Of a stretch of 64,000 nucleotides of DNA, positions 33,760-56,640 are shown piece by piece. Every line of letters starts with the position of its first letter. Positions within the stretch are counted from its first letter, which is position 1. The notes beneath the pieces are model-generated. The model saw only the letters and a list, made by a program, of their open reading frames with translations. It ran no database searches and was not told the DNA's origin. The position numbers and the translations under genes were made by a program. The DNA is from an uncultured Bacteroidia bacterium (GTDB lineage: Bacteria > Bacteroidota > Bacteroidia > Bacteroidales > Prolixibacteraceae): NCBI GenBank assembly GCA_903923905.1, contig CAIXZH010000047.1, positions 1 to 64,000 on the forward strand, in the 5' to 3' direction.

Positions 33760-33804
33760 ATCCTTTATTTTTTTGTTTTTCAGTTCAGAGGTTGAGGAAA
33801 TGGT

Positions 33805-33950
33805 TCTATTGTTTCTGTAGTTCCTGTAGTTCCTGTGGTTTCTGTGGTTTCTGTGGTTTCTATGGTTTCTGTGGTTCCTGTGGTTTCAGGTGTTTCCAGA
33901 GTTTCCAGAGTTTCTGAAGTTGCTATGGTTCCTACCGTTAAGGTGGTTCT
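33805..33950 (-). repeat. 9-bp degenerate tandem repeat between porV and the giant gene
   Basis: On the plus strand the unit is GTTTCTGTG with variants (GTTCCTGTA, GTTTCTATG, then GTTTCCAGA), repeated about a dozen times. It fills most of the 211-bp gap between the porV stop and the giant-gene start. Read in the giant-gene frame it would encode Asn-His-Arg triplets, but no start codon lies in it and an in-frame stop sits at 33886-33888, so I treat it as untranslated. It is not a CRISPR: there are no spacers. Confidence 0.85.
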
Positions 33951-37424: not shown

Positions 37425-40343
37425 ATGAATAAAGTAACCTTCCAAACCTTATTAAACTCCTTCCGAAAACTGGCTTACTCCGAACGTGACAAAGGCGATA
37501 AGTTTGAGCGCTTAATGCAGGCTTACCTTCAAACGGATCCCAAATATGCATACTTATTCAAAAACGTATGGCTTTGGAGTGAATTCCATGGCAAGAAAGA
37601 TCTGGGTGGACAGGATAATGGTATCGATTTAGTAGTGCTCACCATTGAAGGTGATTACTGGGCCATTCAATGCAAATGCTTCAGTGAAGATACCTACATT
37701 GATAAACCTGCAGTTGATTCGTTTCTTTCGATGTCGAGCAGGGAATTTAAAAATGAGAATTATCAAACGGTGAGCTTCTCGCACCGGCTATGGATTTCGA
37801 CTACCAATAAATGGGGCGCCAATGCTACGGAAGCCATCCGAAATCAAAACCCGCCCGTTACGCGATTAAATCTTACCGATTTACAGGAAGCTCCTGTCGA
37901 TTGGGGAAAATTGCAATTGGGGATTACGGGCGAACATTCACGGACCCCAAAGAAAGAGATTAGGCCGCACCAGAAAGCGGCACTGGATAATACCCACGAA
38001 TATTTCAAAACAGCCAACCGTGGTAAACTGATTATGGCATGCGGTACCGGCAAAACCTTTGTATCGCTCCGAATTGCCGAGCATGAAACCAACGGCACAG
38101 GTTTGATCTTGTTTCTTGTCCCATCCATATCACTCCTGGGGCAGACTTTAAGGGAATGGACAGCTGATGCCCGGGAACCCATTAATGCAATCTGCATTTG
38201 CTCCGATCCCGAAATTTCGCGTAAGAAATCGAAAAATGATGATTCAGATAGTTTCAGCATTATTGATCTTGCACTTCCGGCTTCAACCGATGTAAAAAAC
38301 ATTGTCCATCAATTTAAGCAGTTACGTAAAATTGAAGGTGCCGGAATGACAGTTGTTTTTTCGACTTACCAATCAATTGATGTTATAGCACGCACACAGA
38401 AGGAATTGATCAAAAAATCGGACGGATATGGCATTTTCGATTTGATTATCTGCGACGAAGCACACCGCACAACGGGAGTGACACTCGACAATGAGGATGA
38501 ATCGGCCTTCGTAAAAGTTCACGACAACGATTTTCTGAAGGGACGAAAACGGTTGTATATGACCGCCACACCGCGTCTTTACAGTGATGATGCTAAAGGG
38601 AAAGCGGCACAGGCCGAAGCCATTCTTTGTTCAATGGATGATGTGTCCCTTTATGGCGAAGAGATGTACCGGATTGGTTTTGGAGAAGCTGTCGAACGCA
38701 ATCTGCTAACCGATTATAAAGTGTTGATTCTTACTCTAAGTGACCAGGATGTGCCACCTGCCGTTCAAAAGATGATCGCCAATGACGAAAACGAAATCAA
38801 TAGCGACGATGCCTCAAAACTGATTGGTTGCATCAATGCGTTGTCGAAACAAATACTGGGCGATGAGGGGATTCTCAAAGCATGCGATCCTGAACCGATG
38901 CGCAGGGCAGTTGCATTCTGCCAGAATATCGCGATCTCAAAAAAGATAACTAATACATTCAATAGCACCACCTCTGTCTATATCAATTCGTTGCCTGTAA
39001 CCAAGAAAGAACAGATGGTATCGGTCGCATCGGAGCATATCGATGGGACGATGTCTGCGCCAAAACGCGATGAATTGCTGGGATGGCTCAAAGATGGGGG
39101 CGATAATCCAACCGACTGCCGGATTCTGACCAATGTTCGGTGCCTAAGCGAAGGGGTCGATGTTCCTACACTCGATGCCGTATTATTTCTGTCGGCACGC
39201 AACTCGCAGGTGGATGTAGTACAATCGGTTGGACGTGTGATGCGCAAATCACCAGGCAAAAAATATGGATATATAATTATTCCGGTCGTTGTTCCTTCGG
39301 ATGTGGAAGCCGACAAAGCATTGAATGATAACGAACGTTATAAGGTGGTTTGGACCGTATTGAATGCGCTTCGCGCACATGACGACCGTTTCAATGCCAC
39401 AGTAAACAAAATTGAACTCAACAAAAGCCGGCCGATGCAGATCCTTGTCGGACGGCCCGAATATACCTTCGAAGACGATGGGTTACCCATTGCTGCAGAA
39501 CCGCAATCCGGATATTCGAATCAGACGATCAGCCAGCAAATGGCATTGCAATTCGAACAATTGCAAAACATTGTTTTTGCGCGAATGGTGCAAAAGGTAG
39601 GCACGCGTAATTATTGGGAACAATGGGCAAAGAGTGTGGCTGATATTGCAGAACGGCAAGGCGAACGCATCAACCGGTTGATTAAAGAAGTTGTGACCCA
39701 CCAGCAGGAATTTGCCAATTTTTTGGGTGGTCTGCGTAAAAACATCAATCCGGGTATTACCGAACAGGAGGCGGTTGAAATGCTTTCGCAGCACATCATT
39801 ACCAAACCGGTTTTTGAGGCATTGTTCGAGGGATATTCGTTTGTGAAAAACAATCCCATTTCGGTGTCGATGCAAACGATGCTCAACCTTCTTGAAGGCG
39901 ATTCAATAGAAAAGGATACCGAAATATTGCAGAAATTCTACGAATCGGTCAGGATGCGTGCCGCAGGTATCGATAATGCCGAAGGTAAACAGCGGATTAT
40001 TATTGAGCTGTACGACAAGTTCTTTAAAACCGCTTTCCCAAAAATGGTTGAGAAACTGGGGATCGTTTATACACCGGTCGAAGTGGTCGATTTTATTATC
40101 CATTCCGTAGACCATGTGTTGCAAAAGGAATTCGGCAGAACCATCTCCGACGAAAATATTCATGTGCTTGATCCATTTACGGGAACGGGAACTTTCATTA
40201 CGCGCTTACTGCAAAGTGGCCTGATCAAACCCGAAGACCTGGAGCGCAAATACAAAAACGAATTACATGCGAATGAAATTGTATTGCTCGCCTATTATAT
40301 TGCCGCAATTAATATCGAAAATGCGTACCATGATATTATCAAA

Positions 40344-40850
40344 GGGTTTGGGGAACAGGGTATGGGGTTTGGGGAACAGGGTATGGGGTTTGAAAACAAA
40401 ATAAATGATCATGACAACAATCAACTCATTCAAAGATCTGATAGTTTGGCAGGAAGCAATGAACCTGGTAGAATTGATCTATCTGAGTTCTCAAAGCTTT
40501 CCGAAAGAGGAAATTTACGGATTGACAAGTCAGATGCGACGAGCAGCGGTATCGATACCGGCAAATATAGCGGAGGGATACGGCAGGAAAACACGGAAGG
40601 AATATCTTCAGTTTCTGTCAATATCAAATGGGTCACTCACGGAACTGGAAACTCATCTATTGATAGCCCATCGGATCAAGTATCTGGAATACCAAACATT
40701 GGTAAAGATTCAGAATCAAATTCAGTCAGTAGGTCGATTAATGACAGCGCTACGGAAAGCATTAACCCCACGCCCCAACCTCTAAACCCAATTCCCCAAA
40801 CCCAATACCCCAAACCCAATACCCCAAACCCAATACCCCAAACCCAACAC
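40344..40850 (+). mobile_element. IVS-like element A: four-helix-bundle gene between G-rich and C-rich complementary repeats
   Basis: The left end is a 21-bp G-rich repeat (GGGGTTTGGGGAACAGGGTA plus T) present twice plus a partial copy, at 40344-40392. The right end (about 40766-40850) is C-rich, with unit AAACCCAATACCCC repeated about three times and looser copies before it. The two ends are imperfectly complementary, sharing GGGTTTGGGG/CCCCAAACCC, so they could close a long stem around the ORF. This layout recalls intervening sequences of bacterial 23S rRNA, which encode the same protein family inside a stem. Here the host is a protein gene, and part of it is missing. The mechanism of movement is unknown. 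Confidence 0.7.
40411..40785 (+). CDS. Four helix bundle protein (23S rRNA intervening-sequence / S23 family)
   Basis: This 124-residue protein carries family signatures: NSFKDLIVWQEAMNLVELIY near the start, then FPKEEIYGLTSQMRRAAVSI, PANIAEGYGRKTRKEYLQFL and a C-terminal helix with IQNQIQSVGRLMTAL. The family includes proteins encoded by intervening sequences in 23S rRNA genes and is structurally related to the Avd accessory protein of diversity-generating retroelements. The biochemical role is unclear; basic surfaces suggest nucleic-acid binding. I prefer ATG 40411 over ATG 40405 because the family usually begins shortly before the SFKDL motif. Its stop codon lies at the start of the C-rich arm. 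The gene looks intact while the surrounding restriction gene is broken. No reverse transcriptase lies nearby. Confidence 0.9.
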   Translation: MTTINSFKDLIVWQEAMNLVELIYLSSQSFPKEEIYGLTSQMRRAAVSIPANIAEGYGRKTRKEYLQFLSISNGSLTELETHLLIAHRIKYLEYQTLVKIQNQIQSVGRLMTALRKALTPRPNL

Positions 40851-41170
40851 TCCTCTTTAAAGTTGAAAAAATGCGTTTCCCCAAAAAAGATCAAAAGGAT
40901 ACGATCATTTACAATAGCCATATCACGATCACCAACATACCAGCCGAAGCATACGAATATGTCATCAATGGCAAAAGCGCTATCGAATGGATCATGGAGC
41001 GATACCAAATCACCACGCACAAGGAGAGCGGCATCCGCAACGACCCCAACGACTGGGCCACCGAAATGGGTAATCCCCGATATATCCTCGATTTGCTGCT
41101 AAGCATTATCAACGTGATTATTCAAACGGTAGCGATTGTAAAGGGATTACCGGAGGTGAGATTTGAATAA
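40850..41170 (+). pseudogene. Detached C-terminal fragment of the type ISP-like enzyme
   Basis: In a different frame from the upstream part, residues reading LFKVEKMRFPKK, then IPAEAYEYVINGKSAIEW, NDPNDWATEMGNPRYILDLL and a final IVKGLPEVRFE match the conserved C-terminus of fused helicase/methyltransferase enzymes. ATG 40871 could initiate a 99-residue peptide. Because homology resumes exactly where the C-rich repeat ends, the right edge of the inserted element is placed at about 40850. Confidence 0.8.
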
Positions 41171-43110: not shown

Positions 43111-43528
43111 CGGGCGATTCGAATCGAACGGGCGAAGGGGCGAAGGGCGAAGGGGCGATGGGGCGATGGGGTGTCTAGTCCTGAAATAGGTTTACAGAAA
43201 AAGTAAACAAAAATCAGTGCGAGTCAGGATGAGCGATGGAAAGTGATCAATGACACCATTTTTCTGGTGAGTTAATCATGATGATAAATTAGGACAATAT
43301 ATGATCATATTTATCATAGAGCAAATTGTATATTGTTTTATCAATATATTCAAATTCCACGGCAAAATCAAGCCACACCTGTGTCTCCGCAGCCTCCCCT
43401 TCAGAATCAGAAAGTTTGGATACAAAAGATTTTGGATACCTTCTTTTTCTTAAAGATACGAAATATGGAGGAAATATTGAATCCTGCCTCATCCCTCATC
43501 TCCCCTTCGCCTCATCGCATTTATGCCC
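43111..43528 (-). mobile_element. IVS-like element B: decayed four-helix-bundle gene between complementary short repeats
   Basis: On the plus strand the left end (43111-43174) is a G-rich repeat of about 8 bp (GGGGCGAA/GGGGCGAT). The right end (43485-43528) is C-rich with CCTCATCTCCCCTTCGCC and CTCATCGC, partly complementary to the left end. Between them, on the minus strand, lies a remnant of a four-helix-bundle protein gene. Relative to its gene, the 5' side is G-rich and the 3' side C-rich, exactly as in element A 2.3 kb away, but with a different repeat sequence. The right arm ends at the stop codon of nadD. Confidence 0.65.
43247..43492 (-). pseudogene. Four helix bundle protein, truncated with in-frame stop
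   Basis: The translated minus strand gives VSKLSDSEGEAAETQVWLDF, then FEYIDKTIYNLLYDKYDHILS, a TAA stop at 43289-43291, and in the same frame FIIMINSPEKWCH and a second stop at 43247-43249. The DSEGEAAETQVWLDFA motif and the MI..PEKW ending are typical of the C-terminal half of this family. The N-terminal half is missing: the 24 residues preceding the motif do not resemble it. The gene is therefore dead by truncation and nonsense mutation. Confidence 0.8.
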
Positions 43529-49933: not shown

Positions 49934-49961
49934 GCCAGCCGCCAGTCGCCAACCGCCAGCC
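49934..49961. repeat. Four copies of a 7-bp repeat (GCCAGCC)
   Basis: GCCAGCC, GCCAGTC, GCCAACC and GCCAGCC follow each other directly, ending one base before the stop codon of the next gene. There is no complementary partner array nearby. Confidence 0.8.
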
Positions 49962-49962
49962 G

Positions 49963-50355
49963 CTAATGAAACCCATGACCCGATGCCGGTGAAATATTGA
50001 CTTTCAGACTATCAACAAAATAAGTACTTTCCCCTTTCCAGGGAAAGGTCCCGTTTTTTTCGACATAATGGAGGATAACACTTTCCCCCTGTACCTTTTC
50101 GAGCTGAACAGCTACCGTTTTATCCGTGACTGAGAAGAAAAACTTCTCTGAGGCAATTGCCACATTTGTGTAACTCTGGATACTGCTCAGGATCATTTCC
50201 CCCTCATAAGTTTTGAAGATATTCCCTTTATAGGAAATCTTCTGAAGCAATCCGGCCCGGTAACCTTCACTGTAGGTAAATGAATATTTCCAGTAAATCC
50301 CAAGGCTAACTATCAGAATGATTGCCAATAATAAGACGAGTGCAAACTTTTTCAT
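49963..50355 (-). CDS. Conserved membrane-anchored protein, unknown function
   Basis: This 130-residue protein has one N-terminal membrane segment (FALVLLLAIILIVSLGIYW) and a beta-rich extracytoplasmic part with SEGYRAGLLQKISYKG, VFKTYEG-like IFKTYEGEMILSS, and TFPWKGESTYFVDSL near the C-terminus. I recall similar short proteins in many Bacteroidota, sometimes mislabelled 6-phosphogluconate dehydrogenase; nothing in this sequence supports that enzyme. It lies between the rhamnosidase and ettA, divergent from ettA by 193 bp, and converges on the rhamnosidase gene. Confidence 0.75.
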   Translation of the reverse strand: MKKFALVLLLAIILIVSLGIYWKYSFTYSEGYRAGLLQKISYKGNIFKTYEGEMILSSIQSYTNVAIASEKFFFSVTDKTVAVQLEKVQGESVILHYVEKNGTFPWKGESTYFVDSLKVNISPASGHGFH

Positions 50356-56439: not shown

Positions 56440-56584
56440 GATTATTGTAAAAGTATGGTTAATGTAATTGTGAATTAGCGACTTGCTATTGGTTGTTTAT
56501 GGCTGGCTGCAAAGGCCTTACCGCATTTTTATTGTCCAAAACCGGTTCCGGTGAAGGTACTGGTATCCATGTACAGGGTTGCGA

Positions 56585-56640
56585 AATACCAGTGGCCAAA
56601 TGCTAGCGGCCAAATGCCAGTAGCCAGACGCCAATGGCCA
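56585..56640. repeat. Four copies of a 14-bp repeat (AATGCCAGTGGCCA)
   Basis: AATACCAGTGGCCA, AATGCTAGCGGCCA, AATGCCAGTAGCCA and GACGCCAATGGCCA lie head to tail. They follow the 3' end of the PspC-like gene (minus strand) and are not coding as far as I can see. The copies differ by 2-4 bases, so the array is not recent. Confidence 0.85.

Follow-up and report, generated by a model that had tools for sequence, protein, structure and literature searches.

A short open reading frame (ORF) for a four-helix-bundle protein lies inside a protein-coding gene within the 64,000-nucleotide stretch of DNA analysed here (the window), enclosed by repeats complementary to each other, and the question raised by this locus is what kind of unit it is and how it came to be there. 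In this study, we report a computational analysis of the locus and of its relatives, and show that the element probably belongs to a widespread, transposon-like class of miniature DNA elements, about 0.4-0.5 kb long and composed of a G-rich heptad arm, a four-helix-bundle ORF and a complementary C-rich arm. The features of the window are listed in Table 1.

Table 1. Coordinates of the element, its host gene and a neighbouring decayed element in the window
Feature	Position	Strand	Basis or remark
Host 5' part, LlaBIII-like type ISP restriction-modification enzyme (Mrr-like nuclease, helicase, coupler, methylase start)	37425..40343	+	Pfam and homologue
5' arm, seven G-rich heptads (GGGTTTG/GGGAACA/GGGTATG), complementary to 3' arm	40344..40392	+	
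ORF of 126 aa, four-helix-bundle protein (PF05635/TIGR02436)	40405..40785	+	Profile matches; predicted pI 9.6
3' arm, C-rich array of 2 x 7-nt units (CCCAATA/CCCCAAA)	about 40765..40848	+	First units overlap ORF end
Host 3' remnant, end of type ISP C-terminal specificity domain	40853..41170	+	Type_ISP_C 269-342 of 342 for 40871-41167; tblastn
Second, decayed element, PF05635 fragment between GGGGCGAA-type octad arms	43130..43518	-	Separate from main finding

The ORF matched the PF05635 (23S_rRNA_IVP) model with 135.4 bits (cut-off 33.8) in a Pfam profile search and TIGR02436 with 125.8 bits, and the nearest solved structure by sequence was 2gsc. The 5' arm comprises two perfect 21-nt copies plus 7 nt, which is exactly seven heptads in the order GGGTTTG, GGGAACA, GGGTATG, GGGTTTG, GGGAACA, GGGTATG, GGGTTTG, and the 3' arm is a 14-nt (2 x 7) array; the two arms are 78% complementary over 49 nt, and their heptads partly differ. 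Scoring of one arm against the other gave 21.5, whereas 2000 versions of the 5' arm shuffled in 2-nt blocks reached 16 at most, and at 383 other window positions with the same flank geometry the score never exceeded 14. The arms were also paired in a predicted RNA fold (z = -4.2, with 0/100 shuffles as good). The four-helix-bundle gene between complementary G-rich and C-rich repeats described in the initial annotation was thus borne out, and the element carries this PF05635 gene alone, with no transposase gene. Set beside the intervening sequences (IVSs) of 23S rRNA, it has both a long-form PF05635/S23 ORF and complementary, stem-capable ends. None of the PADLOC anti-phage families matched the element at E <= 0.001, and the window protein found no match among phage sequences at E <= 1e-5.

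The window also contains other repeats. The decayed octad-arm (GGGGCGAA type) element lies 3 kb downstream of the main element, and a relative from the same genus (L017) has an intact ORF with arms similar to those of the decayed copy. The stretch GTGTCTAGTCCTGAAATA is common to L016, L006 and L017, where it is found between arm and ORF, on a side of the gene that varies by site. Tandem arrays of 9-, 7- and 14-nt units occur at 33801-33924, 49934-49963 and 56581-56628, respectively; no complementary partner scoring above 9 was found within 700 nt of them, and they are possibly remnants.

The host gene, initially annotated as a methyltransferase gene, proved to be a LlaBIII-like type ISP restriction-modification gene, of which the methylase start is indeed included. 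Pfam searches identified Mrr_cat_2, ResIII, coupler and methylase start in its 5' part, which matches residues 10-966 of the 1578 of LlaBIII. Comparison with an intact 1626-aa homologue in genome G208 (739/967 aligned positions identical, 76% identity, up to residue 968) revealed that the host matches residues 3-968 of the homologue and then about 1525-1626, so that nothing between the arms corresponds to residues about 969-1524. This is therefore not a plain insertion: about 556 host codons (1.67 kb) are missing exactly at the position of the element, with host sequence starting again at about 40853. Since most of its methylase and specificity parts are gone, the gene is almost certainly dead. 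The 5' repeat is in frame with the host, as had been observed, yet translation through it would not restore the host protein, because neither the four-helix-bundle ORF nor the host remnant is in that frame, each occupying one of the other two.

The flanks of other PF05635 genes were then compared by scoring the 400 nt upstream of each match against the reverse complement of the 400 nt downstream. For the genus of the window, 55 of 67 PF05635 matches from 18 genomes were taken, and 37 of the 53 with enough flank scored above the 95th percentile of the null, with a median of 17.5 versus 9.5 for mismatched pairs. The class set consisted of 69 loci from the best-scoring matches listed rather than a random draw; here 47/66 loci with full flanks exceeded the 95th percentile of 11.5 (131 shifted positions). 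A multi-phylum set of 80 named loci, kept from 565 relatives, left 73 usable after seven fell short of flank, and 60 of these were above the 95th percentile: Alphaproteobacteria 8/8, Cyanobacteriota 6/6, Acidobacteriota 5/6, Planctomycetota 5/6, Betaproteobacteria 4/5, Bacteroidota 16/23 and the rest 16/19, including 1/1 from an archaeal metagenome-assembled genome (MAG). The enrichment of repeats around homologous genes, proposed initially as a check, was thus found in all three sets. Direct repeats across the gene were fewer than inverted ones, yet not rare (16/53 in the genus set, 7/66 in the class set and 13/73 in the multi-phylum set). At a stricter cut of 15, 35/66 PF05635 loci passed versus 0/29 usable (of 30) HTH_3 controls in the same pipeline. 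PF05635 was detected in 182/247 sampled genomes of the class at E <= 1e-10.

Many loci of the genus and class sets were mutually orthologous, and the number of independent sites was corrected by removing shared flanks. This left 151 sites, 94 in Bacteroidota and the remainder mostly in other phyla, and at a lenient cut of 13 arms were present at 94 of the 147 scored and absent at 53. At each locus the two arms match each other and not the arms of other loci, and the arm motif tracks protein similarity only weakly at 60-70% identity. The 'telomere-like' character initially ascribed to the repeats is a resemblance of this one heptad only, since other elements use quite different heptads. FRG-domain genes were also considered as a second general cargo and rejected (2/14 scored at least 15, only one of them with heptads). 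In one contig (L338/L351, G052 contig 171), perfect GTATTGA/CAATACT heptad arms enclose an FRG-domain gene, whose spacer adjoins a four-helix-bundle element with the same arms and which may be a second cargo there.

The anatomy was examined at 96 independent sites with strong arms. The best period was 7 nt in 112/152 arms and 8 nt in 28/152, and in the 5' arm G outnumbered C at 88 sites and was outnumbered at 6; 'G-rich arm first on the sense strand' was nevertheless dropped as an orientation signal, since an inverted repeat reads G-rich first from either strand. At the first 56 of these sites, the 5' arm ended a median of 32 nt before the start codon and the 3' arm began 7.5 nt after the stop. 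Relative to the ORF, both neighbours were in sense at 104 of the 151 independent sites, antisense at 8, mixed at 25 and not callable at 14. In Bacteroidota the sense bias was strong, with 73 sites in sense, 2 antisense and 11 mixed; in other phyla it was weaker (22, 4 and 13, respectively), and 11 extra named genomes gave 9 sense, 2 antisense and 1 mixed. The neighbouring genes were defined simply by the length of their ORFs, a method of low reliability at high G+C content. Between orthologous ORFs, dN/dS was 0.04-0.16 in the 7/10 pairs for which it was computable (dS above 1 in six of the seven), and because orthologues persist under such values many copies are old and vertically kept. In three Rhizobiales (L183, L187, L232), an element with a different heptad in each lies just upstream of a gene reading as nuoD by eye, representing either a recurrent site or rapid arm turnover. 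On plasmid pANA02 of Anabaena sp. 90 (L410, 1132-1910), a type I-D CRISPR operon has a four-helix-bundle gene between its cas6 and cas4 genes, with a GGTGACA/GGGAACA heptad array of roughly 300 nt in front of the four-helix-bundle gene.

Occupied and empty versions of the same site, the comparison of which had also been proposed, both exist. Among 15 nuoJ|nuoK spacers measured in the genus (nuoK assigned by Pfam, nuoJ by eye), seven were empty at 5-16 nt, three of 415-443 nt held elements with an intact ORF, two (253 and 419 nt) held degraded copies, and three held another short palindrome. At L065, L066 and L068, the nuoJ-nuoK spacer is filled by a short palindrome of the GTAGAGACG.../...CTCTAC type. 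A fatty-acid oxidation operon (3-hydroxyacyl-CoA dehydrogenase, thiolase and acyl-CoA dehydrogenase) was examined in nine genomes, of which six carry one of a set of related ORFs in the first spacer and three in the second; in G208, the spacer lacking the ORF has a hairpin of similar motif (by eye).

The cleanest case was provided by Nostocales plasmids about 96-98% identical, in which Trichormus and Scytonema carry an insert of 423 or 409 bp at a site that is empty in Aulosira, Nostoc carneum and Microchaete. GTAAT is present once in the empty site and next to each end of the 423-bp insert in the occupied one, a clean 5-bp target duplication that points to insertion of DNA; the six occupied/empty pairs at this site reflect one insertion. 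At a second plasmid site, TTCTA flanks the insert of one strain at either end, next to single-base differences, and is a probable duplication; a third case (TAATG/TTATG) is imperfect. No duplication was visible in the nuoJK pairs or at two further plasmid sites (SITE 2, SITE 4), all of which have diverged, so a perfect duplication is limited to one case. The window copy itself has no known empty site. Two other candidates were set aside for the empty-site comparison: cas6|cas4 of Anabaena sp. 90, where a 98.8% relative carries other sequence in the spacer, and a third plasmid site (L409), where relatives at about 91-93% were too diverged at the junction.

PF05635 is the only ORF of the 423-bp plasmid element, which contains no transposase gene. 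The elements at the first two plasmid sites align end to end, arms included (322/423 columns), and the same element was recognised at a third plasmid site (335/406 aligned positions). The flanks of the three sites scored 10-13 against each other, within the range of unrelated DNA (median 11, maximum 13.5); in this family, then, the terminal inverted repeats move with the element. Raw similarity scores had suggested that each insertion builds its arms anew from the target. This was not kept, because several pairs of related proteins at different sites share a motif (by eye) and because the plasmid family keeps its arms at three unrelated sites; the nuoJK empty site is TAACT, too little sequence to settle the matter. 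The enrichment of repeats together with the occupied and empty sites supports the minimal mobile element without transposase, integrase or reverse transcriptase that was envisaged in the initial annotation. Relatives of the window protein are spread over bacteria and some archaeal MAGs. The best of them, from a Treponema MAG, is 70% identical, compared with 56% for the best other match in 395 genomes of the window's class, a difference that, judged from sequence, was counted in favour of transfer.

Arrays without an ORF were searched for by a strict scan of 800 kb of the closed Bacteroidota genome G119. Thirty arrays were found, 11 of them without a partner scoring 13. Three pairs had a loop of 379-438 nt, each holding a PF05635 ORF, and the other 15 had loops of 15-160 nt, which either could not hold an ORF of 60 aa or did not contain one. 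The stretch contains six PF05635 matches, and the three outside array pairs have arm scores of 9, 14.5 and 16. The whole genome has 12 PF05635 copies, and the 15 preselected hairpins were scored against the flanks of nine of them, giving a mean best score of 16.2 versus 11.0 ± 0.5 for random foreign arm sets (0/2000 as high, genome composition being uncontrolled), and for 8/15 the own match beat all 130 foreign sets. A looser scan of the same 800 kb gave 22 ORF-less hairpins, of which 12 had mixed neighbours, compared with 25/137 PF05635 sites (the ORF cut differing slightly); for hairpins, co-directional versus mixed is the only meaningful distinction, sense and antisense labels being void. 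The sense bias therefore belongs to the ORF-bearing copies, a pattern suggesting that these copies need to be transcribed rather than that they insert into RNA.

Three other explanations of the class were weighed against a mobile DNA element. The locus could instead be an RNA-level intervening sequence, its arms forming a double-stranded stem cut by RNase III and its movement proceeding through RNA with an Avd-like protein and a reverse transcriptase. The protein family and layout are those of 23S IVSs, including the heptamers upstream of the ORF in Coxiella (PMC4990558), classical 23S IVSs are cut by RNase III, and the weak similarity to Avd, the strong sense bias and the predicted stem are all in keeping with such an origin. 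Arm mismatches, however, comprised 84 G.U and 125 A.C, and selection for an RNA stem was rejected, because G.U was not in excess over A.C. The target duplication is a sign of DNA insertion, and the ORF-less hairpins also occur outside co-directional spacers. A required host reverse transcriptase is not supported either: no RVT_1 match (E <= 1e-5) was present in 4/8 near-complete genomes bearing PF05635, among them the closed G142, which has nine PF05635 copies (the search covering the RVT_1 model only). RNA excision, suggested at the outset as a test, could not restore the host gene in the window, because about 556 of its codons are lost. We consider an RNA-level origin unlikely. Still less probable is that PF05635 is an ordinary immobile operon gene whose arms are fast-evolving hairpins for mRNA processing or termination; purifying selection on the ORF, its position between co-directional genes and the recurrent spacers in the nuo and fatty-acid oxidation operons would agree with this, but not the clean empty sites with a target duplication, the same element at unrelated sites, or related ORFs in two different spacers of one operon.

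It is also conceivable that the repeats are generic, slippage-prone heptamer arrays and that PF05635 genes just happen to be located in spacers rich in repeats. Several genomes are rich in heptamer arrays of no known cause (PMC4692102, PMC4679880), and the lone arrays in the window and in G119, as well as the direct repeats raised around PF05635 genes in the genus set, are of the kind expected. We regard this as the least credible of the explanations, for the two arms of a locus match each other rather than those of other loci, the HTH_3 control gave none, and the arms travel with the ORF. A separate doubt concerns the window only, where the host deletion could be an assembly error, or the outcome of recombination between two elements in one gene, and no part of the insertion. 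The source is a draft of 119 contigs, the 5' and 3' arms use partly different heptads, and repeats would be expected to favour misjoins; against this, no second Type_ISP_C match was present in the assembly at E <= 1 (the single match covers positions 250-342), and both host breakpoints lie within about 10 nt of the arms. Such an accident is a real possibility, though we do not favour it.

Mobility at the DNA level thus remains the preferred reading of the class, of which rRNA IVSs would be the form resident in rRNA. The arms would be the ends of the mobile unit, and insertion would take place in DNA and duplicate about 5 bp of the target, as seen cleanly at one site. Most ORF-bearing copies have the orientation of two co-directional neighbours, which makes it probable that the host operon transcribes them; copies that lose the ORF would persist as small hairpins. 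In the window, such a copy would sit in the type ISP gene where 1.67 kb of the host is missing. The element has no nuclease, recombinase or reverse transcriptase, which counts against a transposon-like nature, and we know of no catalytic role for PF05635. Families share the protein family and complementary arms of short units and differ in the repeat, and the protein or the hairpin form is therefore the likely specificity factor. We infer that arms may be recognised by the four-helix-bundle protein, that catalysis would come from another enzyme and that mobility would depend on host transcription. More specifically, there is a near-even case that the four-helix-bundle protein, distantly related to Avd, attaches to the heptad arms of its own element and brings in a host enzyme that does the cutting and joining.

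The heptameric repeat type of cyanobacteria is known as STRR. As a broader and slightly more tentative proposal, PF05635 proteins may be the mobility proteins of a universal transposon-like class without a known nuclease, each protein lineage recognising its own heptad arms and moving ORF-less hairpins in trans; much unexplained heptameric repeat content, such as the STRR-type arrays and the GGGAATC of Xanthomonas, would then be their ends, and rRNA IVSs would be the rRNA-resident form of the class. Joining PF05635 to heptameric repeats in this manner would yield a testable class of mobile elements across bacteria and some archaeal MAGs, explain rRNA IVSs as one of its landing sites, and raise the question of how DNA moves when only a small helix-bundle protein is encoded. 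The protein family, the rRNA IVSs and the unexplained heptamer arrays were each known separately, and what is proposed here is their joining; searches of an open-licence PMC library gave no paper whose title and abstract link PF05635 genes outside rRNA to heptad arms or transposition.

Short IVSs without an ORF are known in Salmonella. Among the closest known systems is the 23S rRNA IVS with an S23/PF05635 ORF, as in Leptospira and Coxiella, which has the same protein family and an ORF enclosed by complementary repeats; in Coxiella, variable heptameric repeats lie upstream of the S23 ORF (PMC4990558). The window element differs in being located in a type ISP protein gene and not in an rRNA gene, its relatives elsewhere lying mostly between protein genes, in arm mismatches without the signature of an RNA stem, and in the target duplication of its plasmid relatives. 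Avd, the accessory protein of diversity-generating retroelements, belongs to the same four-helix-bundle fold family and gave a weak profile match, with the window protein scoring below the cut-off for both bAvd (34.5 bits, cut-off 40) and NF033474 (31.8 bits, cut-off 80). Unlike in such retroelements, no reverse transcriptase is found among the neighbouring genes at 37.4-44.1 kb, which are the type ISP gene, an ABC transporter pair and a cytidylyltransferase-like gene. Heptameric arrays have been described as GGGAATC in Xanthomonas, GGGGA(C/T)T in Nostoc and TAACTGA in Beggiatoaceae (PMC4692102, PMC4679880), with 70 inverted heptamer pairs in Xanthomonas campestris (PMC4692102). They resemble the present arms in their 7-nt units, intergenic position and frequent inverted pairing; a word search of the main text of both reports returned no S23, 'four helix' or 'intervening', and their link to PF05635 elements is proposed here. 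With MITEs and insertion sequences, the class shares inverted terminal repeats and ORF-less derivatives at other sites, and a short target duplication like theirs is clean at one plasmid site and probable at a second. The class differs from them in its ends, which are tandem heptad arrays that vary between families, and in its ORF-bearing form, which encodes no transposase.
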